In this document: in pieces, positions 2,581 through 28,599 of the stretch | Numbering within the stretch: the first letter of the stretch is position 1 | Layout: each line of letters opens with the position of its first letter | IMG/VR virus record: IMGVR_UViG_3300025864_000041 | Location: 1 to 28,856 of that record | Source: a virus | Length of the DNA: 28,856 nucleotides | Direction: 5' to 3' (one strand) | Program-made: the position numbers and the translations under genes | The notes under the pieces: generated by a model | Told to the model about the DNA's origin: nothing | Databases searched by the model: none | Seen by the model: only the letters and a program-made list of their open reading frames with translations

Positions 2581-5022
2581 ATGGCAGGAAAAAATTTATT
2601 GATTCTTGAACGTTCAGCTCAGAATCTTCAAAAGATTACCCGCAACGGAAAAACGATGTTAGAGGGTGTCTTCGCCGAGTTTGGAATTGAAAACCGCAAT
2701 GGACGTATTTACGAAGAAAAAGAGTATTTACCTCACTTGGAATATCTTAAAAAAGATATCGCTAACGGCAACTTACTTGGTGAGTTAGATCACCCTGAAA
2801 GATTTGAAGTTGCTTTAGGCAGTGTTTCACATAGAATTTCCGAGTTATGGTACGACCAACAGAAACGTCAAGTTTTGGGTCGTATTGAAATTTTGGAAGG
2901 TACTCCAAAAGGACAAATTGCCAAATCATTATTAGAGGCAGGCGTTCCACTTTCAATCTCTTCAAGAGCAGCTGGTACTGTTAACGAAGACAAAACCGTT
3001 GCAATTCAACAGATTTATACTTATGACTTAGTTGCTAAGCCAGGATTTGAATCAGCTCAATTGCATAAAGTTAATGAAAGTGTAAACCCAAGACAAAAGG
3101 AAATCGATGAAATGATTATAGCCTTAAACGAAGGTGTAACGTCTCGTAAACAACACAACATCAATTCAAAGTTCGGTAAATTGAATGAAAACATTTCAAT
3201 TCTTGACTTAACAGATAAAGTTCCTATCACATGGCACGGACATGCCGGCATACGTGAAGAAGCTTTAGTAGCTCAAGAAGAAGCCAAACAGGCAAAGCAA
3301 CAAACAACTAAAATTAATGAAAATAATCAAATGGCAGAAACAAAACCAGGAGTTATTAATGAAGAAACTGTACAGCAATGGACAGGCTTATTCACAAAAG
3401 AACTTAGCGCCATAAATTCCAGATTAGACGAAATTCAAGAGAGTGGTAGCACTACAGATCTTACAGCAATCAAAAAGTATATCGAAAAGATACGCAAGAT
3501 TCAGGAAGATTCATTGAATTGGCAATCTGAGATCGCTAAGGCTGTAAATGAAGTTGCTACTTACGCTGATACATTAGCAGATAAGAGTAATAAACATTAT
3601 AAACTAACTAAGAAGATTGTTGAAACTGTAGACTACAACGCAAAAACGCTCAATGCAACACAAGATTGGACAGGCGAAGTAGCTAAAGTAACAAATGCAA
3701 TCGGAGAAACTGTAGATCACAATGCAGAAATGCTTAATGGTCTTAATGAATGGTCAACCCAAATTGCTAAGGGTGTCAATTCACTTAATGAATGGGGTAC
3801 AGAAAAAGCAAAAGCTATCAATGATATGCATGATTGGGTTGGCACTCAAGCAAAAGCTGTCAATGGCATGCACGAATGGACTTCATCAATCGCTAAAAAC
3901 TTCAATCATTCAGTTAATTGGACTGAAGAAATGTTAGGAAGAGCAATTTCTAAAGAAGACGCAGTCAATATGATGAAATATGTCGACTTAGTATCAGAAT
4001 CTAAAAATGATCCAAAACTAAAAGCAAAAATCGACGAAATGCTTAAAGTTAACTCTATCACTGCAAAACCTCTTAACGAGGCAAATCTTAAAGGCATCAT
4101 GGTTATTGACACCGTTGGAAAAGTTGGTAATGTAAAAGTTGCTGATCTTTCTTCTAAAAACACAGGTGTTGAATTCGATGACAAAACCAAAACTATAGTA
4201 GCTAAAATGAGAAATGTCAAATTTAGCAAAGAAAAAATGCCAATTGGTAATAGTAATTTACAAGCGCCATTAAATGCAAAATCTGAAAAGGTTGGTAGTG
4301 ATGGCATGAATAATGAACCTAAAGACCTTAAAGCTAATCTTAAAACTTCTAAAGTTATTGGTGGTAAAGACACTGTAGGAGGCAATCCAAAAGTAAATAT
4401 TGCAAAAGCACAAAATCTTAAATTAAACGTTAAAGCAGGCGGAAAAGGCTTGGTTAACGAAAGTTTTAATAAAACTGAAGATATTCAATCAAGACGTACA
4501 AGACTCGATGAAAAACTTTCTTTGATTATTAACAATCTCGAAAAAGAAAAGACTGTTGACGAAAGCGTTAAATCAGAATTTCCATTCACACAACTTTTAA
4601 GTGGTGAGGATAGAAGCAAATTTGCAAATCTTGATGCATCCGATAAACAAAAGGTAGTCACTGAAATTTCTAAAGTTCCAACAACCGATTCTAAAGTAAT
4701 TGTTAAATTATGGGAAAGCGCATTATCAAATAATAAAGTTGATGAACCACTTTGGCTCAAACTTGCTCCTAAAGTTTACAGAGACGCTTTTACAAAAGCT
4801 CCTCAAAATATCAAGGAAAGTCTTAATGCTAAATCAGAATACTTTACTTTAAACACTCAATATCAGATTGATAATTTCTGGGAAACTAGCGATATTATTC
4901 CTCGTCCAGTTTATACCTTAAATGAATCTATTGCTGCAGTAACAGGCGAAGAAGCAGATCAAAAATACGATAGCGTAGTCGCAGGAGTTGCAGAAGGAAT
5001 GAAACGATACATGAATGTGTAA
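2581..5022 (+). CDS. Prohead protease fused to scaffold (T4 gp21-gp22-like)
   Basis: 813 residues. Residues 1-165 are a T4 gp21-type (S77) prohead protease, with a GELDHP motif holding the putative catalytic His71 and a SISSR motif holding the putative nucleophile Ser128. Residues from about 170 on are helical, charged scaffold. LNE/INE/VNE tripeptides, matching the (L/I)xE cleavage signal of T4 gp21, recur (for example E166, E184, E203, E247, E261 and further on). This suggests the scaffold is cut up by its own protease. Around 390-450 it carries a 14-residue repeat, each unit starting with Trp and containing an AKxxN core. In T4 the protease and scaffold are separate genes. It lies just upstream of the capsid gene, as in T4. 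An in-frame ATG at 3331 could also make free scaffold. Confidence 0.93.
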   Translation: MAGKNLLILERSAQNLQKITRNGKTMLEGVFAEFGIENRNGRIYEEKEYLPHLEYLKKDIANGNLLGELDHPERFEVALGSVSHRISELWYDQQKRQVLGRIEILEGTPKGQIAKSLLEAGVPLSISSRAAGTVNEDKTVAIQQIYTYDLVAKPGFESAQLHKVNESVNPRQKEIDEMIIALNEGVTSRKQHNINSKFGKLNENISILDLTDKVPITWHGHAGIREEALVAQEEAKQAKQQTTKINENNQMAETKPGVINEETVQQWTGLFTKELSAINSRLDEIQESGSTTDLTAIKKYIEKIRKIQEDSLNWQSEIAKAVNEVATYADTLADKSNKHYKLTKKIVETVDYNAKTLNATQDWTGEVAKVTNAIGETVDHNAEMLNGLNEWSTQIAKGVNSLNEWGTEKAKAINDMHDWVGTQAKAVNGMHEWTSSIAKNFNHSVNWTEEMLGRAISKEDAVNMMKYVDLVSESKNDPKLKAKIDEMLKVNSITAKPLNEANLKGIMVIDTVGKVGNVKVADLSSKNTGVEFDDKTKTIVAKMRNVKFSKEKMPIGNSNLQAPLNAKSEKVGSDGMNNEPKDLKANLKTSKVIGGKDTVGGNPKVNIAKAQNLKLNVKAGGKGLVNESFNKTEDIQSRRTRLDEKLSLIINNLEKEKTVDESVKSEFPFTQLLSGEDRSKFANLDASDKQKVVTEISKVPTTDSKVIVKLWESALSNNKVDEPLWLKLAPKVYRDAFTKAPQNIKESLNAKSEYFTLNTQYQIDNFWETSDIIPRPVYTLNESIAAVTGEEADQKYDSVVAGVAEGMKRYMNV

Positions 5023-5107: not shown

Positions 5108-6895
5108 ATGAAACAAATAAACGAACAACAGATAGTTGCTAAATGGTCTCCAATGATCGAGTCTACAACGGGTCTTAAAGATCCTAAGAAACTTTCATGG
5201 ATTGCCAAATACGCACACTATCACGCATTAAACGAAGCTGCAATGGGTGGCGTTAGCACTCCTTATGCAACTCTTTACAACGTTCCTGGAATAGGTAATG
5301 CAATGCCTGCACAACAATCAGCAACAACTGGTAACCAATTCTATCAGAACGCAACAAAAGGTTCAGGTGACAAATGGCCTGCACTTCTTCCAATGGCTCT
5401 TCAGGTGGCTGCAAGAACAATAGGTTTCGACCTTGTTAACGTAGTTCCTATGCCAGGTCCAACAGGTGTTGTATCTTATTTAGATTACGTATACGCTGGT
5501 GGTAAACAACCATACGGTGCTCAACCAGGAACTCAAGCACGTCCTAATCCAAAAGAAGCATCTAATCCACTTTATCCAGGTGTAAAAGTTGCAGCTCCAG
5601 GACTTTATGAAGCTCCTCTAGCATTCAAACTTCAACTTAAAGCAGCAGATGCTTCAACATTTACAACAGCATTAGTTGAAGGCGCAGCAGTTCACTTCTC
5701 TAATGGCGGAGCTACTTTAGAAGCTGTTTATATTGGCAAATCAAGAATTGATGCTTTCCCAATGTTTAGAACAGGTGTATTCGGCGGTGGCGCTGCTAAC
5801 TTGGCAAGTATATTCGATGGCAATATAAATACTGATGTATCTTATGGCACATTCGTTTCCAACACAAGTACTGGTATTACTACTTTCCCAACACTTATCT
5901 CTACATTAGAAGATCAAGTACAAGGATTTGTAGGTGCAGGTCCAACAGACTCAGATCGTTGGGAAGGTACTTTTGTAACTGGAACTACTCTTTACGAACC
6001 TATGGAAAGAGGCGTTGGTGAACTCCAATACCCAAGAGCTTTAGGGCTTCAATTATTCACTAGATTTGTACAAGTTGGAACATTCCAAGTATCAGTAAGT
6101 GTTACTCAAGAGCAAATTCAAGACCTTAACAAACAATGGGGTATTGATGTTATTGCAATGGTAGAAAACGCTGGTATCAACGAAATTTCACAAGCTATTA
6201 ACAAACACATCCTTTCAAGATTATTCGGTCTTGGCTGGAAAAACCACATCAATGGCTACGCAGTTGAAGGTATCAACCTTAACATGAACTGTGCTTCAAC
6301 CGGTTCTCTTACATCAGTTGCTTACGCTTATCCAAGTGGCACTGAATTAGCTTCTTTTGACAATCAATCAATGCCTATCCCTGGATTCGCAACTTACGCA
6401 TCAGTACTTGGTGCTACTTTCGAAAACCAAGATACTATGATTAAGAGAGTTATGGCTAACATCCTTGCAGCTGGTAACATCGTAATGCAAAGAGGTCGTA
6501 GAGGCCCAGCAAACTTTATCGTAACAAACGTTAAAATTGCTACAGCTCTTCAATCAAACAGTGGTTACACATTCTCACCAATCACTAATACATTCACTCA
6601 GTCTAACGGTTCATTGTACCCACTCGGAACAATCGCTGGAATGACTCTTTATGTAGATCCAAACATGATCTATGCAGACACCAGAGTACTTGTAGGACGT
6701 AAAGGTGCAGCAGACGAACCAGGTGTTATATTCGCTCCTTATCTTATGGCTGAAAGCGTTAAGCTTATCACTGAAGGTACAGGTGCTCCTAAGGTAATCA
6801 TCAAAACCAGATACGCTTTGGTTGATGCAGGTTTCCATCCAGAAACTCAATACATTACTTTATTCATTCAAACTAACGCAGGTTCAGTTATTTAA
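5108..6895 (+). CDS. Major capsid protein (T4 gp23-like)
   Basis: 595 residues. Segments around 95-130 and 490-590 match the gp23 fold, including the VxPMxxPTG stretch and the YVDP element near the C-terminus. It forms the hexameric shell of the head. A prohead-protease site is visible as ALNE|AA at residues 40-45, so mature protein would begin near Ala44; T4 gp23 loses a 65-residue N-terminal peptide in the same way. It follows the protease-scaffold gene after an 85-base A-rich spacer and is followed by a strong terminator. Many codons end in C, and overall GC is higher than in neighbouring genes, as expected for a heavily expressed gene. Confidence 0.95.
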   Translation: MKQINEQQIVAKWSPMIESTTGLKDPKKLSWIAKYAHYHALNEAAMGGVSTPYATLYNVPGIGNAMPAQQSATTGNQFYQNATKGSGDKWPALLPMALQVAARTIGFDLVNVVPMPGPTGVVSYLDYVYAGGKQPYGAQPGTQARPNPKEASNPLYPGVKVAAPGLYEAPLAFKLQLKAADASTFTTALVEGAAVHFSNGGATLEAVYIGKSRIDAFPMFRTGVFGGGAANLASIFDGNINTDVSYGTFVSNTSTGITTFPTLISTLEDQVQGFVGAGPTDSDRWEGTFVTGTTLYEPMERGVGELQYPRALGLQLFTRFVQVGTFQVSVSVTQEQIQDLNKQWGIDVIAMVENAGINEISQAINKHILSRLFGLGWKNHINGYAVEGINLNMNCASTGSLTSVAYAYPSGTELASFDNQSMPIPGFATYASVLGATFENQDTMIKRVMANILAAGNIVMQRGRRGPANFIVTNVKIATALQSNSGYTFSPITNTFTQSNGSLYPLGTIAGMTLYVDPNMIYADTRVLVGRKGAADEPGVIFAPYLMAESVKLITEGTGAPKVIIKTRYALVDAGFHPETQYITLFIQTNAGSVI

Positions 6896-13923: not shown

Positions 13924-14198
13924 AGCTTTAACAAGTCATTTTGTTTTAACATTATTTCTTCAAGTTTTGCTAATACATCCGGAGATGGTATTGTAGGATA
14001 TATACATTCTATTTTTGATTGTTGTCCAGTAGTACCAGGAAGAACAATAGTTCGAATGATCGTATCTGTTTCATCCTGTAAACTTTGAGAAAATGTTTTA
14101 TCAAAAAGAGCTCTTAATTCAGCAAGTCTTGTTCTTGCTTTTAATTGTGATTGCAGTCCAAGAGGAATGTAGCATGCTAAAATAATTAATTGTTTCAT
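13920..14198 (-). CDS. Uncharacterised protein
   Basis: 92 residues, helical and charged with a short hydrophobic N-terminus (LIILACYIPLGL) that might be a weak signal or simply a buried helix. It overlaps its neighbours on both sides by four bases, so it is translated with them. It lies directly after the capsid-like gene in the same transcript. No family recognised. Confidence 0.6.
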   Translation of the reverse strand: MKQLIILACYIPLGLQSQLKARTRLAELRALFDKTFSQSLQDETDTIIRTIVLPGTTGQQSKIECIYPTIPSPDVLAKLEEIMLKQNDLLKL

Positions 14199-15172
14199 GA
14201 TAAAAATATTTTAAGATTATGTTTATATTCAATTTTTCTATATAAATGATTTGCGCTATCACCTACTGGGGTTAATACATATCTTATTTTAAATATCATC
14301 TTTGGAGCTCCTATGCCTTCAACTTGTAATACTGATTCAATTCCATAAGCATAGATAAAAAGTTTAAGTCCCGGATATTTAGCAGGTGTTTTGCATCCAA
14401 TGTATACATTCGTATCGCCATAAAGCATATAAGGATCAACATAGATAGTTATCCCCGCTATCATTCCGATAGGATAGGGCATTCCATTGCTTGATTTTAA
14501 TTCTTGCTTTTCCGAAATTACGGTGTATTCACTGTGCATTTGTAATGAGCATCCAGTTTTAACACTACATATTGCAAAATTTCCATACCCAAATTTTCCG
14601 TTAAAATTTATTTTATTAGATTCTTCTATAATTGCGTTTAAAAGATCTTTAACATTATTAACTTTTATTTTCTTTTTATACTCAACATCTATGCGGCTTC
14701 CAAGAAGATTCTTTTTAAAACGAAATTTATTTGAAAATTTATATGCCCAATCTTTTACTTTATCTACTGAAGTATAATCACTTAGATAATTTTTCTCTGC
14801 TATTTTTCCAATTTGAGCTACTGTAGATTTTGAAATACCTATAGCAGCTTCATGCATCAAAGCGTTTTTAACCATAACATTAACATCAATATCAAAATCA
14901 TCTTCCAATTTCGTAATTTGATCTTGTGTTACGCTGCAGGATACTTCGAATGTTTCAGTTTGAATATCTTGCTTAACTTCGGTAAGATTAGTTTTTTCTT
15001 TATTTGTCCAATCGAAATAGCCATAAGTATATTGAGGTAGATCAATAATTTGTACCTCTATAAAGTCTTTAAGAGGTGATAATTCAATAATTTTTTCGAC
15101 AATTTCTTTTGAATTTGGTTGTTTAGTTTCTTCTTCAATTTCGGGTGTAACTACTTTTTTTGTTTTTTTCAT
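14195..15172 (-). CDS. Truncated, diverged major capsid protein paralogue
   Basis: 325 residues. From about residue 70 to 310 it matches the C-terminal half of the major capsid protein (about 320-590): TFEVSCSVTQDQI against TFQVSVSVTQEQI, YPIGMIAGITIYVDPYMLYGDT against YPLGTIAGMTLYVDPNMIYADT, and EGIGAPKMIFKIRY against EGTGAPKVIIKTRY. The first 300 residues of the capsid protein, which carry the cleaved N-terminus and much of the shell fold, are replaced by a 70-residue charged leader. It could be a minor capsid or decoration protein, or a competitor of assembly. T4 gp24 is a full-length paralogue, so this is something different. Confidence 0.85.
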   Translation of the reverse strand: MKKTKKVVTPEIEEETKQPNSKEIVEKIIELSPLKDFIEVQIIDLPQYTYGYFDWTNKEKTNLTEVKQDIQTETFEVSCSVTQDQITKLEDDFDIDVNVMVKNALMHEAAIGISKSTVAQIGKIAEKNYLSDYTSVDKVKDWAYKFSNKFRFKKNLLGSRIDVEYKKKIKVNNVKDLLNAIIEESNKINFNGKFGYGNFAICSVKTGCSLQMHSEYTVISEKQELKSSNGMPYPIGMIAGITIYVDPYMLYGDTNVYIGCKTPAKYPGLKLFIYAYGIESVLQVEGIGAPKMIFKIRYVLTPVGDSANHLYRKIEYKHNLKIFLS

Positions 15173-18822: not shown

Positions 18823-20268
18823 TTATTCTACATTTTCAGCATCTAATATATTCATTGCGCATTCTTCTGCGTCTCCATCTAAAGTAAAACAACTTGAAAC
18901 AATATCTCGATGTTTTGCCAATAAGTCAATAGCTTCATCTTCTGTGCTGCCGGCATCAATAAGTTCATTTATTATCCAATTTTCATATTGTGAAATATTT
19001 CCATCTTCAGATCTTGGATAACTTTCCCCTTCAGAATCTTCAGGACTTGGATAACTTTCCCCTTCAGAATCATCATCATCTATTTGTTTATCTTCAACCA
19101 GCCATTCATTTAAATTTTTAACTGCATGAACTGCATTTAAATAATCTCTTTGACTTTCACCTAAGAATTTTTTGATCTTCGATGATTTATCAGTTTCTAC
19201 TTTAGATTTTTCTGTTTTTTCAACTTCTTTCTTTTGAAGTTCTTTAGTTTCTTTATATTTTATAATAGCATTTTTCATGCCGCCTTTGAATGTATCATTA
19301 TAGAAAGACGTGAAAGCACTTACTACGTTGCTTGAACCAGTTCTAAGAATTTCTTCTCTTTCATCACCAGCTGTATCGTATACTACAAAGTATTTTTGTG
19401 GAGCATTAAGATCAGCAGTTGGTTCCGACATTTCTGGAGATTCTGCAGGCATTTCTGGAGTTGTTTCAGGTGTTTCCAATGGTGTTTCTTCTGGAGTTCC
19501 TTCTGCTGGCAATCCTGAATCATCAGTGCCAAGATCATCTGCACCTTCGATAGGTAAGCCATCATCTGCAGGTTCGGCACCAGGTTCTGACACGTTTGTA
19601 TCTAAACCTAAATCGTCAGTTGTATCTTCAGATCCTTCAAGAGGTAAGCCATCGTCGTCAGGTTCTACAGCCTCATTGGCAGGATTCGGAACCATTTTTT
19701 CTTCAAAGAAATTTTCCTGTGGTTCTGCTTCAGGTTCGATATTGCCTGCCGGTTGTATTTCTTTTCCTTCAATTATTTCTTCTACAGGTTCGTCTGTAGC
19801 ACCCATTCCGCCATCAATACTACCATCTGATAAAGTTGATACTGGAAGTGTAAGAACACCCACAACATAGTCGCTATCATATAGTTTGTATACGTCGCCT
19901 TCACCTTCTTCTGCAAAGCCTTCTTTGGTTTTCTTGTTTTCTTCCCAGAATTCTTTGTATTGAGTGATTTCGCCTTTAGCGCCATTTTTGAAATCTTCGA
20001 AGTTTTTCTTCAATTTTTCAATAACTGCTAAACCATCTTTTTCTTTGTCTTGCAAAGTAGATTTGTCTTTTTTATCAGGAGTGCCAGGTTTGTCTTCCTT
20101 TTCTTCGGTTTCTTCCTTTTCATCATCTTTATCTTCGTCTTCTTCGTCGTCCTTTTCTTCGTCCTTTTCATCCGTTTTCTCTTCGGGTTCAAAATCTTCA
20201 AAGGTTCTTAAATTTTTAAAGAATTGGTAGTCTTCGTATTGACTTAATGATTCACGAACATGTTTCAT
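18823..20268 (-). CDS. Large acidic low-complexity protein
   Basis: 481 residues. After a 28-residue start (MKHVRESLSQYEDYQFFKN) comes an almost pure Glu/Asp/Lys tract (about 29-75). A second acidic Pro/Gly-rich part (about 165-290) has DDGLPLEG and DDGLPIEG repeats, then a small folded-looking domain (KYFVVYDTAGDEREEI). Near the C-terminus is an 11-residue repeat, SEGESYPSPED. An LNE tripeptide occurs in VKNLNEWLVED. Such composition fits a head core or DNA-mimic protein. It is the first gene of the minus-strand island, directly behind the divergent promoter region. Function unknown. Confidence 0.7.
   Translation of the reverse strand: MKHVRESLSQYEDYQFFKNLRTFEDFEPEEKTDEKDEEKDDEEDEDKDDEKEETEEKEDKPGTPDKKDKSTLQDKEKDGLAVIEKLKKNFEDFKNGAKGEITQYKEFWEENKKTKEGFAEEGEGDVYKLYDSDYVVGVLTLPVSTLSDGSIDGGMGATDEPVEEIIEGKEIQPAGNIEPEAEPQENFFEEKMVPNPANEAVEPDDDGLPLEGSEDTTDDLGLDTNVSEPGAEPADDGLPIEGADDLGTDDSGLPAEGTPEETPLETPETTPEMPAESPEMSEPTADLNAPQKYFVVYDTAGDEREEILRTGSSNVVSAFTSFYNDTFKGGMKNAIIKYKETKELQKKEVEKTEKSKVETDKSSKIKKFLGESQRDYLNAVHAVKNLNEWLVEDKQIDDDDSEGESYPSPEDSEGESYPRSEDGNISQYENWIINELIDAGSTEDEAIDLLAKHRDIVSSCFTLDGDAEECAMNILDAENVE
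19013..19071 (-). repeat. Two direct copies of a 26-base coding repeat
   Basis: Copies at 19013-19038 and 19046-19071 are identical and 33 bases apart, giving an 11-residue repeat in the acidic protein. Confidence 0.85.
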
Positions 20269-20338: not shown

Positions 20339-21181
20339 ATGAAGTATAGTGAATACATACAACTATTAGACGTTTTGGAAGAACAAGGAATAACTCTTGA
20401 AGAATTTCAAGCAAATCAACAATTATATGAAGGCCTCATTGGAAATGTAGCTGGAAAAGTTTTTGGATTACTTAAAAAAGGAATGAAAACTCTTATTTCT
20501 AAAGGTGTTTCTCAAGAATATATTAAGAAACTTAATGATTCAGCTAATAAGATCGTGCAAATGGTTCAGGACAAATTAGCTACCAAGAAAGATGCAGAAG
20601 GAAAAGGCGGAGAAGGTGTAATTCAATCTATAGAAAAAAATGTAGAAACATACAAAACAACTTGGTCAAATAAAAATAATAATGCTCAAGTTCCGCCAGA
20701 ATTACAAACAAAACTCGATAATAAAAAAAATAAAGAAATAGCAAAATACATTAATGGTCAAGTAACTGTATACTCAGATAAAGTAAAAACCTCAATTAAA
20801 ACAAAAAAAGGTTTATCAGACAACGATAGAGAAAACTTACAAAATTATTGGGATCAGTTAATGACCAAAATTAATGTTGATGTATCTGGAAAATTAATTG
20901 AAAATGGAATACTTGAAGATGATGATGCATATTCAGTTTTCAAAGATATTTTAAATATTAAGAAAATGGGTGTAGGCGGTGAAGAACCCAAACCAGCAAA
21001 CCCCGATTTACCTAAAGTAGGAAATGTATATACAGTACTTATTGGTCAAGCTCCTACAAAAGTAAAAATAACAAAAATTGATAACAAAACAATTTATTAT
21101 GTAGGACTTAATTCTGGACAAAAAGGAATTAAAGGAGAAGTTCCTATTACAGCTGCAAAAGATTTTAAACCTGCATCTTAA
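20339..21181 (+). CDS. Probable head-internal protein with capsid-targeting N-terminus
   Basis: 280 residues from Met 20339. A longer frame reaches back to 20270, but those codons cover the divergent promoter, so the later start is preferred. The first 31 residues (MKYSEYIQLLDVLEE to LYE) are followed by Gly and look like a targeting peptide ending in an L-x-E protease site. The body is helical and Lys-rich (about 35-210), then a proline linker, then a small beta-rich domain (about 222-280) resembling an SH3-like barrel by its strand pattern. The family is unknown to me. Confidence 0.7.
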   Translation: MKYSEYIQLLDVLEEQGITLEEFQANQQLYEGLIGNVAGKVFGLLKKGMKTLISKGVSQEYIKKLNDSANKIVQMVQDKLATKKDAEGKGGEGVIQSIEKNVETYKTTWSNKNNNAQVPPELQTKLDNKKNKEIAKYINGQVTVYSDKVKTSIKTKKGLSDNDRENLQNYWDQLMTKINVDVSGKLIENGILEDDDAYSVFKDILNIKKMGVGGEEPKPANPDLPKVGNVYTVLIGQAPTKVKITKIDNKTIYYVGLNSGQKGIKGEVPITAAKDFKPAS

Positions 21182-21202
21182 TTAAGAAATTAAAATATTA
21201 TA

Positions 21203-21826
21203 ATGGCAAAAACTTCTATATCAAATGACGCTAAAAGAGCCGCAGAAATGTACAAAAAAGCTGATGAGTTATATGCAAGAATAACGAAAAACTTTGAAAG
21301 TATTGAAAGCGGTGAAGTTAAATACTCGACTGATAAATTCAAATTTATCAAACTTCAAAGTGATTTGAAGCAAGTAAGAAATATGCTTACCAAAATAGAT
21401 ACTGATAGTCTTGTTGCTTATGTGGGACAAGAAAAAGTAAACACAATGGAGAATAACATAACTTTCATGATTGAAAACAGTGAATACATAGAAAAGCGTC
21501 TTATGGCTGATCAATATGTAGATGACCTTTATGTTCCTGTTAAACATTATCTTGAACAATTTATGGGTGATGAAAGTAATTACAAAAAATGGGCAGCAAA
21601 TATTAGTGATTTAGCTAAGAAATTTGTTGGAATGATGGCACACCCTAATAACATTGATAATTTCAAAGGTTATCTTAAAAGAATAGTGTTAGGAACAATG
21701 ACTTTAAGAGAATTTAAAAAGATATTCGAATCAAGCAAACATAAAATGATTGCAATATATGAGCCAAAATTGGGCGCTAAATTCGAATCATTCACAGAAT
21801 ATAAAAACTATAACTATGAAGCATAA
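21203..21826 (+). CDS. Uncharacterised helical protein
   Basis: 207 residues, all-alpha by composition, charged, without membrane segments or cysteines. Unlike its neighbours, it has no Lys-rich N-terminal peptide ending in L/I-x-E. Its last 11 bases overlap the start of the SET-domain gene, so the two are translationally coupled and may work together. No family recognised. Confidence 0.7.
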   Translation: MAKTSISNDAKRAAEMYKKADELYARITKNFESIESGEVKYSTDKFKFIKLQSDLKQVRNMLTKIDTDSLVAYVGQEKVNTMENNITFMIENSEYIEKRLMADQYVDDLYVPVKHYLEQFMGDESNYKKWAANISDLAKKFVGMMAHPNNIDNFKGYLKRIVLGTMTLREFKKIFESSKHKMIAIYEPKLGAKFESFTEYKNYNYEA

Positions 21827-22529
21827 AATTAAACCATTAGAAGATTATTTACAAACAAAAGCTATCAACGAAGAATTTTCAAATCCTTTCGATAAAGATA
21901 ATACAATTGAGACGAAACCATCTCATATTGCTGATAAGGGTGGGATGTTATCGCTTCGTAAAGAAGTATTCAATATTAATCGTGTTGAATATTCTAAGAA
22001 AAATAATGGATCATTTATAGTAATGGCAAAAACTCAATTTGCCAAAGGAGAAATAGTTGAAATTGCTCCGATTATCTTTGTAGGATTGGAAGCGAAAGCA
22101 GTTCCTCGTTTAAAAGATTACATTTACGAAATTGATAAAAAGAAACAAATTTATGGCGTAGTTTTGGGCTATGGATCTTTATACAAACACAGTGAAACTC
22201 CTAATATAACTTTTGCATATAATAAAGGTAATAAGCAAATGTATTTCATTTCAGCAAAAACAATTAATGCTGGAGAAGAATTAACAATTGATTATGGAAA
22301 AGATTACTGGGCAGAACGTTCAGGATTTGGAACAATGGCACCACAAGAAAATCCAGTTCAAGGTGGAGAAGCTGTTGCAAAAGGTGAAAGCGAAGAAAAT
22401 GAAAGCATGGTTCAACCAAATTCTCAAGATATCACCAACATGTCAACAGCAAAACAATTTGGAGAACCAAACAGTCGAATGAACCCCGCAGTTACTGGAG
22501 TTGCCATTAAAGGAATTGGCCAACAATAA
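21816..22529 (+). CDS. SET-domain methyltransferase with capsid-targeting peptide
   Basis: 237 residues from Met 21816; a longer frame from 21750 lies inside the previous gene and is less likely. The first 19 residues, MKHKIKPLEDYLQTKAINE, form a targeting-type peptide with an INE site. A SET domain follows: the GSFIVMAKTQFAKGEIV block (65-81), GYGSLYKHSETPN (118-130) in the place of the NHSxxPN motif, and AKTINAGEELTIDYGKDYW (147-165), which holds the catalytic-type Tyr. SET enzymes methylate protein lysines with SAM. The tail (170-237) is disordered. Chlorella virus vSET is a packaged relative by analogy. The target is unknown. Confidence 0.87.
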   Translation: MKHKIKPLEDYLQTKAINEEFSNPFDKDNTIETKPSHIADKGGMLSLRKEVFNINRVEYSKKNNGSFIVMAKTQFAKGEIVEIAPIIFVGLEAKAVPRLKDYIYEIDKKKQIYGVVLGYGSLYKHSETPNITFAYNKGNKQMYFISAKTINAGEELTIDYGKDYWAERSGFGTMAPQENPVQGGEAVAKGESEENESMVQPNSQDITNMSTAKQFGEPNSRMNPAVTGVAIKGIGQQ

Positions 22530-22544
22530 AATAAAATTTAAACT

Positions 22545-22802
22545 ATGAAAGCTAAATTAATAAAAGAATCATTAAATGAAACAGAATGGTTTCCGGGAGT
22601 GGGTGCTTATTTATCAAAAATTCGTAGAAAATTGTGGTTTAAAGGATTTAAGTGGAAAGATACAGAAGACATAGTAATAGAATATACTGATCGTGTAGTA
22701 GAGTTTTTACGCACTCATGATAAAGGAGATAAAATCGCTTTAAACAATATCGTAGAAATAATTGCCAAAAAATATATTAAAAATCATGAAAAAAATAGTT
22801 AA
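22545..22802 (+). CDS. Small basic protein with capsid-targeting peptide
   Basis: 85 residues. Begins MKAKLIKESLNE, the same 12-residue leader as the 23137 gene, with a predicted prohead-protease cut after Glu12. The remaining 73 residues are basic with a WFPGVGAYL start and helical end. Predicted to be packaged in the head with the DNA. Family unknown. Confidence 0.65.
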   Translation: MKAKLIKESLNETEWFPGVGAYLSKIRRKLWFKGFKWKDTEDIVIEYTDRVVEFLRTHDKGDKIALNNIVEIIAKKYIKNHEKNS

Positions 22803-22836
22803 AGAATCGTTAAATGAAAGCTTTAAAAATATTTGA
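22786..22836 (+). other. Stray targeting-peptide frame overlapping two genes
   Basis: A 16-codon frame, MKKIVKESLNESFKNI then TGA, overlaps the end of the 22545 gene and the start of the 22814 gene in a third frame. It encodes a perfect leader-type peptide (compare MKAKLIKESLNE). A one-base indel would join it to the 22814 protein. It may be a relic, a sequencing or assembly error, or a real fused start. Confidence 0.4.
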
Positions 22837-23119
22837 AAAATTTGAGGAAAAAAGTGATCCTATAGCGGATATGGGTATTGGCATAGGGAAGTTAAATATC
22901 TATACTGAAGTATGGGCTATTATTACTAATGGTGATTCAGAAATATACGAGATATATCTTAAAAAAGAATATGCTTTAAGAGAATGTGAAAAAATAAATA
23001 AGCAAACATATGTATTTAATCAGCATAGAAAAGCTGAAGTTAAATCATTAGGTGATGCCATTGATCTTATAAAAGATGTAGTTAGAGATAACGCGGAAGA
23101 TCCAGGAGAAGATTATTAA
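22814..23119 (+). CDS. Small acidic protein of the EKSDPI group
   Basis: 101 residues. Begins MKALKIFEKFEEKSDPIAD and continues MGIGIG; the segment EKSDPI-x-DM-x-IGI is shared with the 25293 gene. IFE at 6-8 could serve as an I-x-E protease site. The middle (TEVWAIITNGDSEIYEIYL) resembles a small beta sheet. The unrelated bodies of the two genes suggest that only the N-terminal module is shared. Confidence 0.65.
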   Translation: MKALKIFEKFEEKSDPIADMGIGIGKLNIYTEVWAIITNGDSEIYEIYLKKEYALRECEKINKQTYVFNQHRKAEVKSLGDAIDLIKDVVRDNAEDPGEDY

Positions 23120-23136
23120 AATAAAAAATAATAAAT

Positions 23137-23460
23137 ATGAAAGCTAAATTAGTTAAAGAAGATTTAAACGAAGAAGGAAAAGATTTTGAATACACAGGAA
23201 GATTTAATCAACCAGGCAGGGCAAATTATTCGCCTTCTCGCCAAAAAGAACGCCTTAAGCCTTCAACTCAAGGAGCTTATGCACACTCTCAAAAAGAAGA
23301 AATACTTCAACGAATTGAAATATATTGTAATCAAGTGATAAATGATGCAGAAGAACTTTCTAATAAGTACAAACATGATGAAATAGAATTAGATACACTA
23401 AATAATGCTAATTCTGGTGCACGTATAGCAGAAGATATTTTAGGCCTTCTTAATAATTAA
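23137..23460 (+). CDS. Small protein with capsid-targeting peptide
   Basis: 107 residues. Begins MKAKLVKEDLNE with a predicted cut after Glu12. The next stretch, about 15-50, is rich in Gly, Pro, Ser and basic residues (FNQPGRANYSPSRQ) and is probably disordered; the C-terminal half is helical. Predicted head-internal protein; family unknown. Confidence 0.65.
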   Translation: MKAKLVKEDLNEEGKDFEYTGRFNQPGRANYSPSRQKERLKPSTQGAYAHSQKEEILQRIEIYCNQVINDAEELSNKYKHDEIELDTLNNANSGARIAEDILGLLNN

Positions 23461-23463
23461 TAT

Positions 23464-23862
23464 ATGTATATAGACGGTATCAAAACCATTCTAGCAGACA
23501 TTAAGTCTGTACAACTTTCTTTACTCCAAAAAGGAATAGAGAAAAAAGACAATAAAGCAGAATATTTCAAAAAGAAAACCGTGAAGTTTGTGTTACCTAC
23601 AAGTTTTCCAAGAACTGACGAATATTTCGAAGCGTTACTTGGTGATATGTTTAAAGATCTTTTAGTTGATGCACCAGATGATGCAGATTATCTGGGCTTA
23701 TGGATTGAATATGATACCATAACATTAGATAACGCCATATCTCTCCAGTCACTCAAAGACATCCAAGAGTATTCTAAAGGTCCAATAACTCCTTCCTATG
23801 AATTTTTCAAAATGACTTTACCCAAAGAAACACCCAACGGTTTCAATGAATCGTGTAATTAG
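23464..23862 (+). CDS. Uncharacterised protein, no targeting peptide
   Basis: 132 residues, starting three bases after the previous stop (so part of the same transcript) but without the Lys-rich leader of its neighbours. A hydrophobic-acidic core (EYFEALLGDMFKDLLVDAP, then DYLGLWIEYD) suggests a compact alpha-beta fold. A terminator-like RNA follows the TAG stop. No family recognised. Confidence 0.6.
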   Translation: MYIDGIKTILADIKSVQLSLLQKGIEKKDNKAEYFKKKTVKFVLPTSFPRTDEYFEALLGDMFKDLLVDAPDDADYLGLWIEYDTITLDNAISLQSLKDIQEYSKGPITPSYEFFKMTLPKETPNGFNESCN

Positions 23863-23871
23863 TCAATACAA

Positions 23872-23951
23872 GATGACTTGTAGTTTAAAGACAGAATCTC
23901 AGTATTAAAGCTGAAGGAGTGAGTGTGGGAGCTCACCAGGCCATCTTTTTT
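23872..23951 (+). ncRNA. Cloverleaf-like structured RNA of unknown role
   Basis: A 9-position closing stem (23872-23880 with 23937-23945, one A-C mismatch) encloses three hairpins: 23883-23886/23894-23897, 23899-23902/23911-23914 and 23919-23923/23932-23936. It is followed by six T (23946-23951). Total length is 74 bases, as in a tRNA, and TA joins stem and first arm. However, the third loop (TGTGGGAG) lacks the TTCRA motif and the second loop has 8 bases, so it is not a normal tRNA. It could be a decayed tRNA, a small RNA with its own terminator, or a leader element for the downstream gene. Confidence 0.4.
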
Positions 23952-23994
23952 AAAATAATTCATTCAATTTTTTATACTCGAGTATATCACGAAG

Positions 23995-24016
23995 CAGTTA
24001 GCAATAACTGTTTTTT
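23995..24016 (+). terminator. Intrinsic terminator with GCAA tetraloop
   Basis: CAGTTA (23995-24000) pairs with TAACTG (24005-24010) around a GCAA loop, followed by six T. It separates the small-gene cluster and the structured RNA from the KamA gene. Confidence 0.85.
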
Positions 24017-24030
24017 GAGCATGAAAATAT

Positions 24031-24050
24031 TTAATATATAGAACAAAACT
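24031..24050 (+). promoter_or_regulatory. Promoter-like element before the KamA gene
   Basis: TTAATATATAGAACAAAACT lies 45 bases before the ATG, after the terminator. It shares the AATATATA core with the other promoter-like sites. Low confidence. Confidence 0.3.
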
Positions 24051-24073
24051 AAACTAAAATTATGTATATAATA

Positions 24074-24089
24074 AGTAAAATATTTTACT
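24074..24089. promoter_or_regulatory. 16-base perfect palindrome next to the KamA start
   Basis: AGTAAAATATTTTACT ends five bases before the ATG at 24095. A perfect palindrome there could be a repressor site or a hairpin hiding the ribosome binding region; A/T richness raises the chance of coincidence. Confidence 0.35.
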
Positions 24090-24094
24090 AAAAA

Positions 24095-25261
24095 ATGGAC
24101 GAACAAGATTCATCTAACAAGGGGCATTTTCAGACCACAGAGCTCTCTGAAAATACCGAACCTCCTTTAGCAAGCTCCCCGAAATCAATCGATTTTAAAA
24201 ATAAATTCTACCCTACATCATCTTTATCAGAATGGAATGACTGGAAATGGCAAATCCGTAACAGCATAACTTCTTATGATGAATTGAAAAGAATTTTCGG
24301 AGATTCTGAATACGAATTATCCGAAGACATTAATCTGCCATTAAGAATCACTCCATATTATGCGAGTACAATTTCTTCATTAAATCAAGGAATTGGTAAG
24401 TGTGTTATTCCAACCAGTAACGAACTTATTGTTACACCTAATGAAGTTAATGACTCATTGCATGAAGAACAACAAAGTCCAGTAGCATGTATAGTGCATA
24501 GATATCCAGACCGTGTCTTGTTTCTAACAACGGACTTTTGTTCTTCAAATTGTCGATACTGCACAAGAAGTCGACTTATTAATCGTGAAACAATTTCACG
24601 AAAAGTTTGGGATAAAGGAATTCAATATATTAAAGATCATCCTGAAATACGAGATGTATTGTTATCAGGTGGTGACCCACTTACAATGAGTGATGATAGT
24701 ATTGAGTATCTTCTTAAAGAAATAAGAGCTATTGATCATGTTGAGTTTTTACGTATTGGAACAAAAGTTCCTGTCGTATTACCTCAAAGAATTACTCCTG
24801 AGTTAACTAATATGCTTAAGAAATACCACCCTTTATTTATCAGTATTCACTTTAGCCATCCGGATGAAGTAACTCCAGAAACAAAACAGGCTTGTGAAAG
24901 ACTTGCAGACGCAGGAATTCCGTTAGGGTCACAAACCGTTTTACTTAAAGGCGTTAATGACAGTGTGGAAATCATGAAGAAGCTTATGCATAATTTACTT
25001 ATGATAAGAGTACGTCCTTATTATATCTACGCGTGCGACCACGTAGTAGGTACATCACATTTTAGATCACCTATCAGTAAGGGTATTGAAATCATTGAAG
25101 GATTACGAGGCTGGACAAGTGGTTATGCAGTTCCTCAGTTCATTGTTGACACGCCGGGCGGCAAAATCCCACTTTTGCCTGAATATTTTGTAAGTAGAGA
25201 AGGAAACTGTATAAAATTCCGAAACTATCAAGGAAAAGAATTCACATATTATGAAGATTAA
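24095..25261 (+). CDS. kamA: Radical-SAM lysine 2,3-aminomutase (KamA family)
   Basis: 388 residues. The radical-SAM cluster motif CSSNCRYC (C149, C153, C156) comes after RYPDRVLFLTTD. SGGDPL (191-196), FISIHFSHPDEV (248-259), SQTVLLKGVND (279-289) and the RVRPYYIYACD block (305-315) match lysine 2,3-aminomutase. Asp315 and Asp352 correspond to residues that hold the substrate amino group, and Lys357 (DTPGGK) to the PLP lysine, so activity on lysine is expected: L-lysine to beta-lysine. The usual GGGGK before the lysine is shortened here. EpmB, which modifies EF-P, is a relative. Own terminator and promoter region upstream; no targeting peptide, unlike its neighbours. Confidence 0.92.
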   Translation: MDEQDSSNKGHFQTTELSENTEPPLASSPKSIDFKNKFYPTSSLSEWNDWKWQIRNSITSYDELKRIFGDSEYELSEDINLPLRITPYYASTISSLNQGIGKCVIPTSNELIVTPNEVNDSLHEEQQSPVACIVHRYPDRVLFLTTDFCSSNCRYCTRSRLINRETISRKVWDKGIQYIKDHPEIRDVLLSGGDPLTMSDDSIEYLLKEIRAIDHVEFLRIGTKVPVVLPQRITPELTNMLKKYHPLFISIHFSHPDEVTPETKQACERLADAGIPLGSQTVLLKGVNDSVEIMKKLMHNLLMIRVRPYYIYACDHVVGTSHFRSPISKGIEIIEGLRGWTSGYAVPQFIVDTPGGKIPLLPEYFVSREGNCIKFRNYQGKEFTYYED

Positions 25262-25264
25262 AGC

Positions 25265-25280
25265 GAATATATAAATAAAA
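25265..25280 (+). promoter_or_regulatory. T4-late-like promoter element
   Basis: GAATATATAAATAAAA contains TATAAATA (25270-25277), the T4 late consensus, 15 bases before the ATG at 25293. It starts just after the KamA stop. Confidence 0.4.
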
Positions 25281-25292
25281 TGTATTGTTTAT

Positions 25293-25577
25293 ATGCGTGC
25301 CAAATTCATAAATGAAAAATTTAAAGAAAAAAGCGATCCTATAAAAGATATGCGTATAGGCATACGAAGTAAGAATTTTCCAAAAGGATTTGAACCGATA
25401 TTTATTTTGAAAAAACGATATCCTGGAATGGATTGGCCAGTAGGAACAGTGTTCGGACAAGTTGATGGGTGGGATTCATTAAAAGTATATGATAATAAGG
25501 GTTCAGAACACGGAAATACAGCATGGACAATGACGTATTTTATACCGTGGATAGGTACATTCTTTGAAAAATTTTAA
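25293..25577 (+). CDS. Small basic protein of the EKSDPI group
   Basis: 94 residues. MRAKFINEKFKEKSDPIKD has an FINE site at 5-8 and the EKSDPI-x-DM-x-IGI module found in the 22814 gene. The body is unlike that gene: a Gly/Trp-rich, beta-type region (PGMDWPVGTVFGQVDGWDS, then DNKGSEHGN). Predicted head-internal protein, with a promoter-like element of its own. Family unknown. Confidence 0.65.
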   Translation: MRAKFINEKFKEKSDPIKDMRIGIRSKNFPKGFEPIFILKKRYPGMDWPVGTVFGQVDGWDSLKVYDNKGSEHGNTAWTMTYFIPWIGTFFEKF

Positions 25578-25586
25578 ATTGTGAAC

Positions 25587-26048
25587 ATGAAAAAAGTTAG
25601 AGAAGAATTATATGAAGAATTAAATGAATCATCTGCTACAAGCAAAAAAGGATTTCATGATAATATCGAGCAGGACACATTAGATAATGAGAATTTTCGT
25701 AAGGTACTCTATACCGGAAAAAATATGCAACTGGTTTTAATGACATTAAAACCTGGCGAAAACATTGGAATGGAACATCATCCTGCTGATCAATTTTTTA
25801 GATTTGAAGCCGGAACTGGAGAATGCATCATCAATGGAAATGTATATAAAGTAAGAGATGGATATTCAGTTTTAATCCCAGGTGGTGCAGAACATGACGT
25901 AATAAATACCGGCAAAGTAACTTTGCAAATGTACACATTATATTCACCACCAAATCATACAGATCAAGTAGTTCATACAACAAAAGAAGTTGCAGAAAAA
26001 GCTGAAAAAAGTGGAAAAGATAAATTTAGAGGTAAAACAACTGAATAA
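25587..26048 (+). CDS. Cupin-domain protein with capsid-targeting peptide
   Basis: 153 residues from ATG 25587; a GTG two codons earlier is also in frame. Leader MKKVREELYEELNE (1-14) ends with the LNE site. A single cupin barrel follows (about 36-122). Motif 1 is PGENIGMEHHPADQFFRFEAGTG (split as 57-66 and 67-79) with metal-type His64, His65 and Glu74. Motif 2 is GYSVLIPGGAEHDVIN (92-107) with His103. The metal site looks complete, so an enzyme (isomerase, dioxygenase or similar) or a small-ligand binding protein is possible. The C-terminal 20 residues are Lys-rich. The leader suggests packaging in the head. Confidence 0.85.
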   Translation: MKKVREELYEELNESSATSKKGFHDNIEQDTLDNENFRKVLYTGKNMQLVLMTLKPGENIGMEHHPADQFFRFEAGTGECIINGNVYKVRDGYSVLIPGGAEHDVINTGKVTLQMYTLYSPPNHTDQVVHTTKEVAEKAEKSGKDKFRGKTTE

Positions 26049-26062
26049 AATAAAAATACAGT

Positions 26063-26329
26063 ATGAAGGCAAAATTGGTTAATGAAAATTGGATTGATAA
26101 AAGACCGAAACAGGAAGTTTGGGCAGCAGATAACGATGAAGATGGATATGGCCCTAATGCAGAAATTCTACGTAATGTTGATGATTCGGATGAAAAGATT
26201 TTTTCAAAAAATGATGTTAAAAAAATACTTAGATCTATTGTAGGATATTCAAAGGAACAAGGCAGATTATGTGGAGATTTAGATCAAAAAATAAGAATGC
26301 TTGCTAGAAAACATAACATAAAATTATAA
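26063..26329 (+). CDS. Small protein with capsid-targeting peptide
   Basis: 88 residues. MKAKLVNE (V-x-E site after residue 8) then NWIDKRP. Acidic middle (ADNDEDGYGPNAEIL) and a helical basic C-terminus. Predicted head-internal; family unknown. Confidence 0.6.
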   Translation: MKAKLVNENWIDKRPKQEVWAADNDEDGYGPNAEILRNVDDSDEKIFSKNDVKKILRSIVGYSKEQGRLCGDLDQKIRMLARKHNIKL

Positions 26330-26331
26330 AT

Positions 26332-26637
26332 ATGAAAAAATTACTATACGAAACTTTACATGAATATATAAACGAAACTGAAGGTCTTTTTAAAGGACAA
26401 ATAGATACTGGTCTCGAAGCTAAAGATGTTGATCAAAAAGAATTCTTAGTAGGGTTAGCAGTTGAAAAAATACATTCTGACAACTTGGCAGTTCAAAAAG
26501 AACTCGTACTTCAAAATTTAGCTGACAATCCCAAATTTTATAGTGAAGGAATGAAAAAAGGACTATTTTCGGCACCAGCCGCAATTAACACATACAAAAA
26601 ATATTTTATAGACAAGGACGAACCCGAACAAAAATAA
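26332..26637 (+). CDS. Small helical protein with capsid-targeting peptide
   Basis: 101 residues. MKKLLYETLHEYINE is a 15-residue leader with an INE site. The body is amphipathic and helical (GLFKGQIDTGLEAKD, then EFLVGLAVEKIHSDNLAV). Starts two bases after the previous stop. Last member of the run of tagged genes; family unknown. Confidence 0.65.
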   Translation: MKKLLYETLHEYINETEGLFKGQIDTGLEAKDVDQKEFLVGLAVEKIHSDNLAVQKELVLQNLADNPKFYSEGMKKGLFSAPAAINTYKKYFIDKDEPEQK

Positions 26638-26955: not shown

Positions 26956-27381
26956 ATGAAAAAACAATTACTAACAATTTTGACAATTTTGGCATTTATG
27001 ATTCTTGCATCATGTAATACAAAAAACCCAAACTCTAAACAAGGTATATCTATAATGTATGTGGAGGACACTACCAAACTATCTATACAAGAAAAGAATC
27101 AAATTATCATTATTAAGAATCAAGAAGCGATAATAAGAAATCAAGAAAACTTGTTAAGTCGTCAAAAAGATGAGTTTAACAATCAAGGAACTGTGTTAGG
27201 TAATCAAAAAGGTATGCTAAACAATCAAAACGGTGTGTTGGGCAATCAAAAAGATATGCTAAACAATCAAGGAAGTGTACTAAAGAATCAAACAACCGAG
27301 ATAAAGAATCAAAAAAGCATATTAATAAGACAAGATTCAATAAAAAAAAAGGATTCAGTGATTAATATACAAATGAAATAA
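26956..27381 (+). CDS. Lipoprotein with long Asn-Gln heptad stalk (copy 1)
   Basis: 141 residues. Lipoprotein signal (MKKQLL to LASC) with Cys20 at the lipobox. After a spacer of about 17 residues (with a YVEDTTK segment) come 12 heptads, ten with Asn-Gln at positions 2-3 (for example NNQGTVL, GNQKGML), two with Arg-Gln. Setting the hydrophobic residue at a makes Asn the d residue, as in trimeric coiled coils of autotransporter adhesins. Longest of four paralogues. No charged residues follow the Cys that would clearly mark surface export. Confidence 0.8.
   Translation: MKKQLLTILTILAFMILASCNTKNPNSKQGISIMYVEDTTKLSIQEKNQIIIIKNQEAIIRNQENLLSRQKDEFNNQGTVLGNQKGMLNNQNGVLGNQKDMLNNQGSVLKNQTTEIKNQKSILIRQDSIKKKDSVINIQMK
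27133..27333 (+). repeat. 21-base coding repeats in lipoprotein copy 1
   Basis: Nearly every 21 bases contain an AATCAA core coding Asn-Gln, in tandem. The same unit recurs in fewer copies in the three downstream genes. Confidence 0.75.
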
Positions 27382-27415
27382 ATAAATAAACAAACAAACT
27401 AAATAAAATAAAATT

Positions 27416-27700
27416 ATGAAAAAACAATTATTAACAGTATTAGCAGTAGCATTTATGATTTTTGCATGTAATTCATGTACTCCAAAAAGTCCTGCAGTAA
27501 AACAAGAAATAGTGTACACACAAGATACTTCTAAGGTATCTCAGTCAGAACGTAATCAACTTATGATTATAGCAAACCAAGAAGCGATAATAAAAAATCA
27601 AGAAGAGATAATAGCAAATCAAAAAACCTCGTTAAAAAATCAAGGAACCATGTTAAAAAATGAAGATACAATTAAACAATCTACTGATAAAACTAAATAA
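27416..27700 (+). CDS. Lipoprotein with Asn-Gln heptads (copy 2)
   Basis: 94 residues. Signal peptide with Cys18 or Cys21 as the lipid site; the box (IFAC) is less typical than in copy 1. YTQDTSKVSQSERNQ (about 36-50) is shared with copies 3 and 4. Six heptads follow (ANQEAII, KNQEEII and so on), then it stops soon after. It lacks the C-terminal IDSMIVI module of copies 3 and 4. Confidence 0.75.
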   Translation: MKKQLLTVLAVAFMIFACNSCTPKSPAVKQEIVYTQDTSKVSQSERNQLMIIANQEAIIKNQEEIIANQKTSLKNQGTMLKNEDTIKQSTDKTK

Positions 27701-27709
27701 AATAAAAAT

Positions 27710-28090
27710 ATGAAAAAAGTAATTTTAGTAATTTTAACAATTTTGACATTTAGCATTCTTATATCATGTAATACAGGCTCTGTGAAGCCAGAAAAACAAA
27801 CTATATCTGTAACGTACACACAAGATACTTCTAAGGTATCTCAATCAGAAAGGAATCAAGCTTTGATTATTAAGAATCAGGCAGAGATAATAGCAAATCA
27901 AGAAAACTTGTTAAAAAATCAAGATACAATTGAAAAAAGTGTAAATAATGAATATTCACAAAATACAGAAAATCTTATTAGTGAAAGCAAAAATGTAAGT
28001 TCTATGTATATGCAATTGGAACAAATAGGAAAATATTTAAAAATACAACAAAAACAAATCGATTCAATGATTGTAATCAAAATGAAATAA
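27710..28090 (+). CDS. Lipoprotein with Asn-Gln heptads (copy 3)
   Basis: 126 residues. Lipobox Cys20 (LISC), shared YTQDTSKVSQSERNQ block, four heptads, a linker with Ser/Asn, then a C-terminal segment ending QQKQIDSMIVI, which copy 4 also has (QQREIDSMIVI). Copies 3 and 4 therefore share N- and C-terminal modules but differ in stalk length. Confidence 0.75.
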   Translation: MKKVILVILTILTFSILISCNTGSVKPEKQTISVTYTQDTSKVSQSERNQALIIKNQAEIIANQENLLKNQDTIEKSVNNEYSQNTENLISESKNVSSMYMQLEQIGKYLKIQQKQIDSMIVIKMK

Positions 28091-28122
28091 CTAAAATAAA
28101 ATAAAATAACTAAAATAAAATT

Positions 28123-28599
28123 ATGAAAAAACAAATATTATTGGCAATTTTAGCAACATGGGCATTCATGATTATTGTATCATGTGTTGCATGCACTTCT
28201 AGTTATGCACAAGGAAAACAAAATATATCTATAGCGTATACGCAAGATACTTCTAAAATATCTAAGTCGGAAAAGAATCAAACTATAATTCTTAAGAATC
28301 AAAAACATATGATGCAAAATCAAGGAACCATGTTGCAAAATCAAAAAACCTCATTAAAAAATCAAGGAACCATGTTAAAAAATCAAGATTCAATTAAAGA
28401 TAATATAACTGATAGTACACAACAAGTTATTAGCAACAACAAAAATGCGCCTGCATTAAATCTTCAACAAACAATATATAATAATAATACATTAATATTT
28501 GATCAATTAGAAAAAACACAAAAAACTTTAAAAATGCAACAAAGAGAAATCGATTCAATGATTGTAATTCATAAGAAAACAAAACATCTCCAAAAATAG
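28123..28599 (+). CDS. Lipoprotein with Asn-Gln heptads (copy 4)
   Basis: 158 residues. Lipobox Cys21 (IVSC); an alternative signal peptidase I site (SYA|QG) follows 8 residues later, so the form made is uncertain. Shared YTQDTSK block, six heptads (QNQGTML, KNQKTSL), an Asn-rich linker and the QQREIDSMIVI end. Stop is TAG. Last complete gene of the array. Confidence 0.75.
   Translation: MKKQILLAILATWAFMIIVSCVACTSSYAQGKQNISIAYTQDTSKISKSEKNQTIILKNQKHMMQNQGTMLQNQKTSLKNQGTMLKNQDSIKDNITDSTQQVISNNKNAPALNLQQTIYNNNTLIFDQLEKTQKTLKMQQREIDSMIVIHKKTKHLQK

Follow-up and report, generated by a model that had tools for sequence, protein, structure and literature searches.

In bacteriophage T4, the prohead protease gp21 cuts after L/I-X-E and also chops the scaffold, as described in PMC9026906. 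The targeting role of the 10-19-residue leaders of T4 was established through IPIII. The T4 gp24 sequence begins MAKINELLRES and is cut as MAKINELLRE/S (a slash marks a cut site here and below). In the giant phage SPN3US, gp53 and gp54 have an identical 15-residue N-terminus (PMC5694885, PMC9026906). Here we describe short leaders of this general kind, and a peptide tag that follows some of them, in a stretch of viral DNA from IMG/VR (record IMGVR_UViG_3300025864_000041, positions 1 to 28,856; hereafter the window). The window phage is a Lak-like giant phage, the nearest named phage by major capsid protein (MCP) being Prevotella phage Lak at 47% identity. Because the window is only a 28.9-kb fragment, whole-genome tests were made on relatives, which at 66-79% capsid identity include G003 (405 kb) and G006 (323 kb), both read full length. 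Judging from sequence comparison, we think it likely that these phages carry head cargo resembling the T4 internal proteins, with leaders that would be cleaved, and that this arrangement has been enlarged by a universal post-cleavage tag and by polyproteins that the prohead protease could cleave.

Leader peptides and the prohead protease

A gene cluster at 20.3-26.9 kb of the window contains nine genes that are open from the starts proposed in an earlier, sequence-only reading of this DNA, each with a leader of 8-31 residues (Table 1). In gene order, the leaders end in LYE, INE, LNE, IFE, LNE, INE, LNE, VNE and INE; the L/I-x-E propeptide end by which T4 internal head proteins are recognized is therefore found in all nine if V is accepted in first position, as some of the sites require. 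Three leaders, those of the genes at 22545, 23137 and 26063, are nearly identical strings, as that reading had also noticed. The pattern M[KR]...[LIV]xE within 32 residues occurs in 9 of the 13 genes at 20.3-26.9 kb vs 3 of 27 in the rest of the window (p 4e-4), and a tighter leader pattern in 7 of 13 vs 0 of 27 (p 9e-5), although these p values are optimistic, both patterns having been defined after the leaders were seen. In orthologues of the leader genes from other phages, the xE site is kept and the residues preceding it vary: the SET protein orthologues read AINE/EF, LDE/EF, YLNE/DF, KLNE/DF and KLAE/DF at identities down to 51%, and those of the 26332 protein and of the cupin protein behave in the same way.

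The predicted leader-cutting enzyme, an S77/S80-like prohead protease fused to an [LIV]NE-rich scaffold half, is encoded in the same window, which provides the T4-type protease context that had been proposed for the leaders. Its scaffold half contains nine [LIV]NE (14.5 per 1000 vs 2.35 across the rest of the window), and across the sampled phages the signal is found 71 times in 6126 residues of scaffold halves vs 607 times in 391079 residues of all other proteins (a 7.5-fold odds ratio, p 4e-36). The MCP shows LNE at the cut column in 78 of the 78 related MCPs that could be aligned. The earlier claim that capsid protein and scaffold carry the LNE signal is thus borne out, and the window leaders look like cut sites of the phage's own T4-type (S77) prohead protease.

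A conserved element behind the predicted cut

In the genes at 22814 and 25293, a second conserved element of 15 residues, KFxEESDPIxDMGIG, stands directly after the predicted cut; we refer to it as the SDPI tag. The sequence-only reading had reported a shared leader on unrelated bodies. Their bodies are indeed unrelated (those of the 22814 and 25293 proteins have no match at E<=10, and the sole other pair at E<0.1 is an 18-residue match), but the sharing is not limited to the leader, since these two proteins also have the 15 post-cut residues in common. In G003 the element is part of a recurrent N-terminal string of the typical form MKLVREHINE/KFTEESDPIHDMGIG. A hidden Markov model (HMM) of the tag, cleanly separated from background, finds 88 copies in 64 open reading frames (ORFs) of G003 (~10% of the contig), 2 in the window and 1 in G001; with other IMG/VR contigs included, there are 295 distinct copies. 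Tags attached to different body clusters are 65% identical, vs 7.6% for the next 18 residues. In several tagged G003 ORFs (78181, 81913, 271004 and others) no ATG precedes the leader, so that translation must begin at a different codon.

The tag is tightly coupled to an xE site: when the SDPI half alone was searched, [LIVMF]xE-x-[FYL] lay immediately upstream of all internal copies (99 of 99) and of 179 of the 186 at an N-terminus, and chance xE motifs can be rejected as an explanation for the tagged genes. Conservation extends jointly to the residues before and after the predicted cut. A T4-type leader needs no conservation after the cut, so the whole box could be a binding peptide in which the xE happens to be included. 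In that alternative, [LIV]xE-KFxEESDPIxDMGIG would be a single uncut motif by which proteins dock onto one shared partner inside the infected cell (a phage compartment, polymerase or chaperone), and the proteins with several tags would be uncut multidomain scaffolds. The spread of tagged genes across 30-387 kb of G003, well outside the head genes as well, and the short helix formed by part of the tag in the model of family A2 would suit it. We nevertheless regard it as unlikely. Site and tag are separable elements, since some copies have a few extra residues between xE and F(T/S)E (HIDE/RMGFTE, TINE/QLSKFTE), the orthologous SET, cupin and 26332 proteins have xE leaders without the tag, the [LIV]NE signal also marks MCP and scaffold, and, as described below, the xE end is always present on non-terminal modules and almost never on terminal ones.

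Tag pairs that share an amino acid use the same codon at a rate of 0.653, vs 0.645 expected from genome usage; because this is so close to expectation, the similarity appears to be kept as protein and not by recent DNA copying. On the basis of this codon test we reject the idea that the tag is a DNA-level cassette for recombination or gene exchange (homing-like or by gene conversion), translated by chance and functionless as protein, and give it hardly any credence. Such a cassette would fit the many paralogous copies, the several homing endonucleases under the same promoter-like motif (see below) and the skewed codons at the cut (AAC for Asn, 0.44 vs 0.12 genome-wide; GAG for Glu, 0.17 vs 0.07), but not the mixing of synonymous codons as genome usage predicts, the conserved amino acids, or the constant place of the tag at the module start.

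A pattern search did not find the tag in G006, G013, G014, Lak-A2 or LR756500, nor did tblastn find it in named phages with the 25-residue consensus at E 10, a short query that may miss divergent copies. We read the 34 pattern matches in bacterial genomes as chance: nearly all are lone matches at their locus, spread across unrelated phyla, and the matches listed have no xE-KF context.

Table 1. Head genes, leaders, tags and a candidate core gene in the window
Feature	Coordinates	Strand	Evidence
Prohead protease (S77/S80-like) fused to [LIV]NE-rich scaffold half; predicted leader-cutting enzyme	2581..5022	+	PHROG head maturation protease E 1.5e-38; Pfam Peptidase_S77 E 1e-13
MCP, Gp23 family; predicted cut after residue 43 (HALNE/AAMGG, nt 5236/5237)	5108..6895	+	Pfam Gp23 E 7.5e-36
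Acidic protein, start MKHVRESLSQY; candidate prohead core protein	18823..20268	-	Homologues in five distinct relatives
Leader, 31 residues, end LYE, before 249-residue body	20339..20431	+	Homologue with MKYSEYIQLLDILE start in relative G001
Leader, 19 residues, end INE, of SET-domain protein (21816-22529)	21816..21872	+	Pfam SET E 1.4e-11; [LI]xE/[ED]F.NP[FY] in five distinct homologues
Leader MKAKLIKESLNE	22545..22580	+	Open frame, leader pattern
Leader MKALKIFE	22814..22837	+	Open frame, leader pattern
SDPI tag KFEEKSDPIADMGIG, right after predicted cut	22838..22882	+	Tag HMM; resembles dozens of G003 tagged proteins, mostly over first ~25 residues only
Leader MKAKLVKEDLNE	23137..23172	+	Open frame, leader pattern
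Leader MRAKFINE	25293..25316	+	Open frame; AATATATAAATAAA motif upstream
SDPI tag KFKEKSDPIKDMRIG, right after predicted cut	25317..25361	+	Tag HMM
Leader MKKVREELYEELNE of cupin protein (25587-26048)	25587..25628	+	Pfam Cupin_2 E 2.4e-15; G009 orthologue start MRMVKEKLYE
Leader MKAKLVNE	26063..26086	+	Open frame, leader pattern
Leader MKKLLYETLHEYINE	26332..26376	+	Orthologues MKKIAYETLQEYLNE (G001), MKKLVYESLNE (G003)

Tagged polyproteins and their putative cargo

ORFs with 2-8 tags are common, up to eight tagged modules being joined in one chain. Modules end in [LIVM]xE in 88 of 88 non-terminal vs 4 of 194 terminal cases, a comparison in which the non-terminal ends are partly set by the tag match itself, as the profile includes the xE columns (the search with the SDPI half alone is the cleaner test). 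Over all contigs, the bodies behind the tag fall into 119 clusters, the three largest of which (38, 35 and 30 members) occur standalone or first in 22, 27 and 17 cases and internally in 16, 8 and 13. Homologues that occur alone and in fusions can be aligned along most of their length, e.g., at 56% over 88 residues. This amounts to a shuffling of modules around a fixed boundary, and the modular exchange of leader and cargo that had been suggested from the window is supported by the pairing of tag or leader with unrelated bodies. A model of a three-module polyprotein had an overall confidence of 62.5 with dips around the junctions, and is only mildly informative. Two polyproteins with at least 2 tags each (684 residues in G021, locus L302; 385 residues in G003, G003:145625-146779) have at their C-terminal end a segment that looks like the N-arm of the mature MCP, PGMGxxxPxxx...GSGDxW followed by a Lys-rich tail. 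In G006 and G015, N-arm-like segments are found on other proteins, one of them with a HAD-like N-terminus.

Compared with Pfam, 84 tagged proteins matched 18 families, chiefly ankyrin (repeats in 13 of 84); other bodies appear by eye to be leucine-rich-repeat-like, zinc-ribbon-like or small unknown domains. Such binding-type repeats would fit host-interacting proteins. The commonest unknown body family yields a confident model, with a predicted local distance difference test score of 84; its body blocks mostly score 83-97 and its first tag residues ~50. Neither Pfam nor PHROG placed any window cargo or any of the 84 tagged proteins in the IPI, IPII, IPIII or Alt families, which is not decisive, since T4-like phages vary here too.

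For the leader-bearing and tagged proteins we infer cleavage, packaging, docking, ejection and a host function along the following lines. The short Lys-rich N-terminal peptide would bring each protein into the prohead core, where the S77-type protease would cut after [LIV]-x-E. In the large tagged subset, KFxEESDPIxDMGIG would then remain as the N-terminal end of the mature protein, where it probably serves for docking, with the capsid interior, the DNA or the ejection path as the partner. Where the box links several cargo modules in one open frame, cuts after each [LIV]xE would free separately tagged proteins. The cargo, often ankyrin or leucine-rich-repeat-like, would be ejected along with the DNA, to act at an early stage in the newly infected host. 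With more caution, we lean towards a wider proposal, that a clade of giant phages makes its head cargo as cleavable polyproteins, in which unrelated effector modules with a common 15-residue mature tag are translated in tandem, packaged by way of an N-terminal targeting peptide, separated in the prohead by the maturation protease and injected together as a large exchangeable arsenal.

The same proteins could instead be head-core or scaffolding parts that give the prohead its filling and its shape. They would then be cleaved by the protease, for the most part leave the head, and do nothing in the host. T4 offers a precedent, as gp22, gp67 and gp68 are cut to fragments and mostly lost (PMC9026906), and the candidate core proteins at 18823 and 20339 adjoin the cluster. 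However, more than 100 unrelated body clusters (ankyrin, leucine-rich-repeat-like, zinc-ribbon-like), together with the SET and cupin proteins, look effector-like and not like structural filler, and the cut sites lie at module borders, so we consider a purely structural role improbable.

Several observations do weigh against a cargo role. In most relatives the [LIV]NE leader enrichment of untagged genes is weak, and several show little or none, so that genes with a leader alone are less certain in those phages, and chance may account for part of them. In G003, leaders also occur on genes for a MoxR-type AAA ATPase, a VWA/metallopeptidase and a lysozyme, none of which would readily be taken for cargo. 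The model of the commonest body family found no structural match in PDB or BFVD. Finally, most tag-bearing contigs are fragments without an MCP, so that the link of tagged contigs to the clade of the window phage rests on G003, G001, G005 and the window. The MoxR-type ATPase and VWA/metallopeptidase genes adjoin one another (G003:45465-49200, minus strand), both with xNE leaders, and could be an unexpected head-protein pair.

A promoter-like motif, RAATATATAA[AT]AT?AA, is present in 36 copies vs 5 in a reversed control (the short form RAATATATAA alone, at 88 vs 79, is not above the control). It lies upstream of 10 of 29 leader genes vs 69 of 699 for comparison (p 5e-4), and, among genes with an upstream gap, of 8 of 24 tagged ones (p 0.004 against the others, 17 of 176). 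Portal and protease genes of G003 and G006 have the motif or its core ATATATAA ahead of them, and a genome-wide view of both contigs shows the form GAATATATAAAATAAA ~20-30 nt before the ATG of portal, protease, tail and homing endonuclease genes; since the last of these carry it too, the motif is the mark of a gene class that is wider than cargo. No copy was seen within 60 nt of the capsid gene, which may be co-transcribed with the protease gene. Homologues of the acidic 18823 protein have the motif 25-53 nt upstream in G003, G001, G006, G009 and G011. Leaders as frequent in early replication genes would have counted against the sequence-only reading; in G003 and G006 the genes for DNA polymerase (polB), ribonucleotide reductase and DnaB helicase have neither leader nor motif. 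The motif resembles the T4 late TATAAATA element, and the tagged and leader genes may be expressed late, together with virion genes.

Some other genes of the window deserve mention. A lysine 2,3-aminomutase-like radical SAM gene without a leader (24095-25261, plus strand) lies inside the cargo cluster, and G003 has only a short C-terminal match to it (267779-267928), close to its own cargo genes. A second, short Gp23-like capsid protein (14195-15172, minus strand; Pfam Gp23 E 1.7e-13) and a second S77-like protease fragment (11216-11677, minus strand; PHROG E 1e-18) sit among glycosyltransferase-like genes and are possibly a paralogous head pair. At 26956-28599 (plus strand), a family of lipoprotein-like genes is arranged in tandem, with NQ-rich segments that recur.

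Comparison with described systems

The cargo of giant phages is mostly unknown because the bodies diverge fast, and a start tag that can be read from sequence makes it searchable: in one genome the tag lists 88 candidate modules without recourse to body similarity. If our reading is correct, polyprotein processing would be added to tailed-phage head maturation, the tagged modules would supply many candidates for early effectors and anti-defence proteins, and the short portable signal could be tried for loading phage heads with foreign proteins, a use already made of the T4 sequence. A literature search in PMC found no description of the tag, of the polyprotein form or of jumbo-phage head polyproteins, an absence that is no proof of novelty.

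Although its MCP is related to that of the window phage, Prevotella phage Lak differs in its leaders: Lak-A2 lacks the SDPI tag pattern, and over the 400 kb examined [LIV]NE is not enriched among the first 15 residues (p 0.31). G014 (348 kb, 48% capsid identity) does have such enrichment (p 2e-7), along with its own leader family, MK[YH]IKxxxFE/[AS], in ~30 genes; leader systems therefore seem to turn over between lineages. In Lak-A2 (W01), five adjacent genes at 231835-234281 (minus strand) start with variants of MKVQIR.GVFETNSSS.H.L and have different bodies.

The polyvalent proteins of phages and conjugative elements likewise combine several effector-like domains per polypeptide and are predicted to enter the host with the DNA (Iyer et al. 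2017, PMC5512222), but they are described as delivered whole or self-processed by an internal peptidase domain, whereas the modules described here are bounded by prohead-protease-type sites and each has the same tag. Typical polyvalent domains (MPTase, ART, DdrB-ParB, MuF and others) were not found by Pfam in the 84 tagged proteins. The head ejection proteins of SPN3US and phiKZ are similar in that a giant phage processes many inner-head proteins with an S80-like protease; however, their propeptides are often >100 residues long with the motif A/S-x-E, and neither a universal post-cleavage tag nor tandem tagged modules are described in the available parts of PMC5694885 and PMC9026906.

IPI-IPIII and Alt of T4, which have a capsid targeting sequence cut by gp21 (PMC9026906), share with the proteins described here a short propeptide with a gp21-type site at its end (the T4 ones are 10-19 residues long), the same Pfam protease family, unrelated exchangeable bodies, and a cut signal common to capsid and scaffold proteins. 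T4 has a handful of such proteins, each a single one, whereas one relative of the window phage has 88 tagged modules in 64 ORFs, with a conserved peptide that follows the predicted cut and with modules arranged in tandem.

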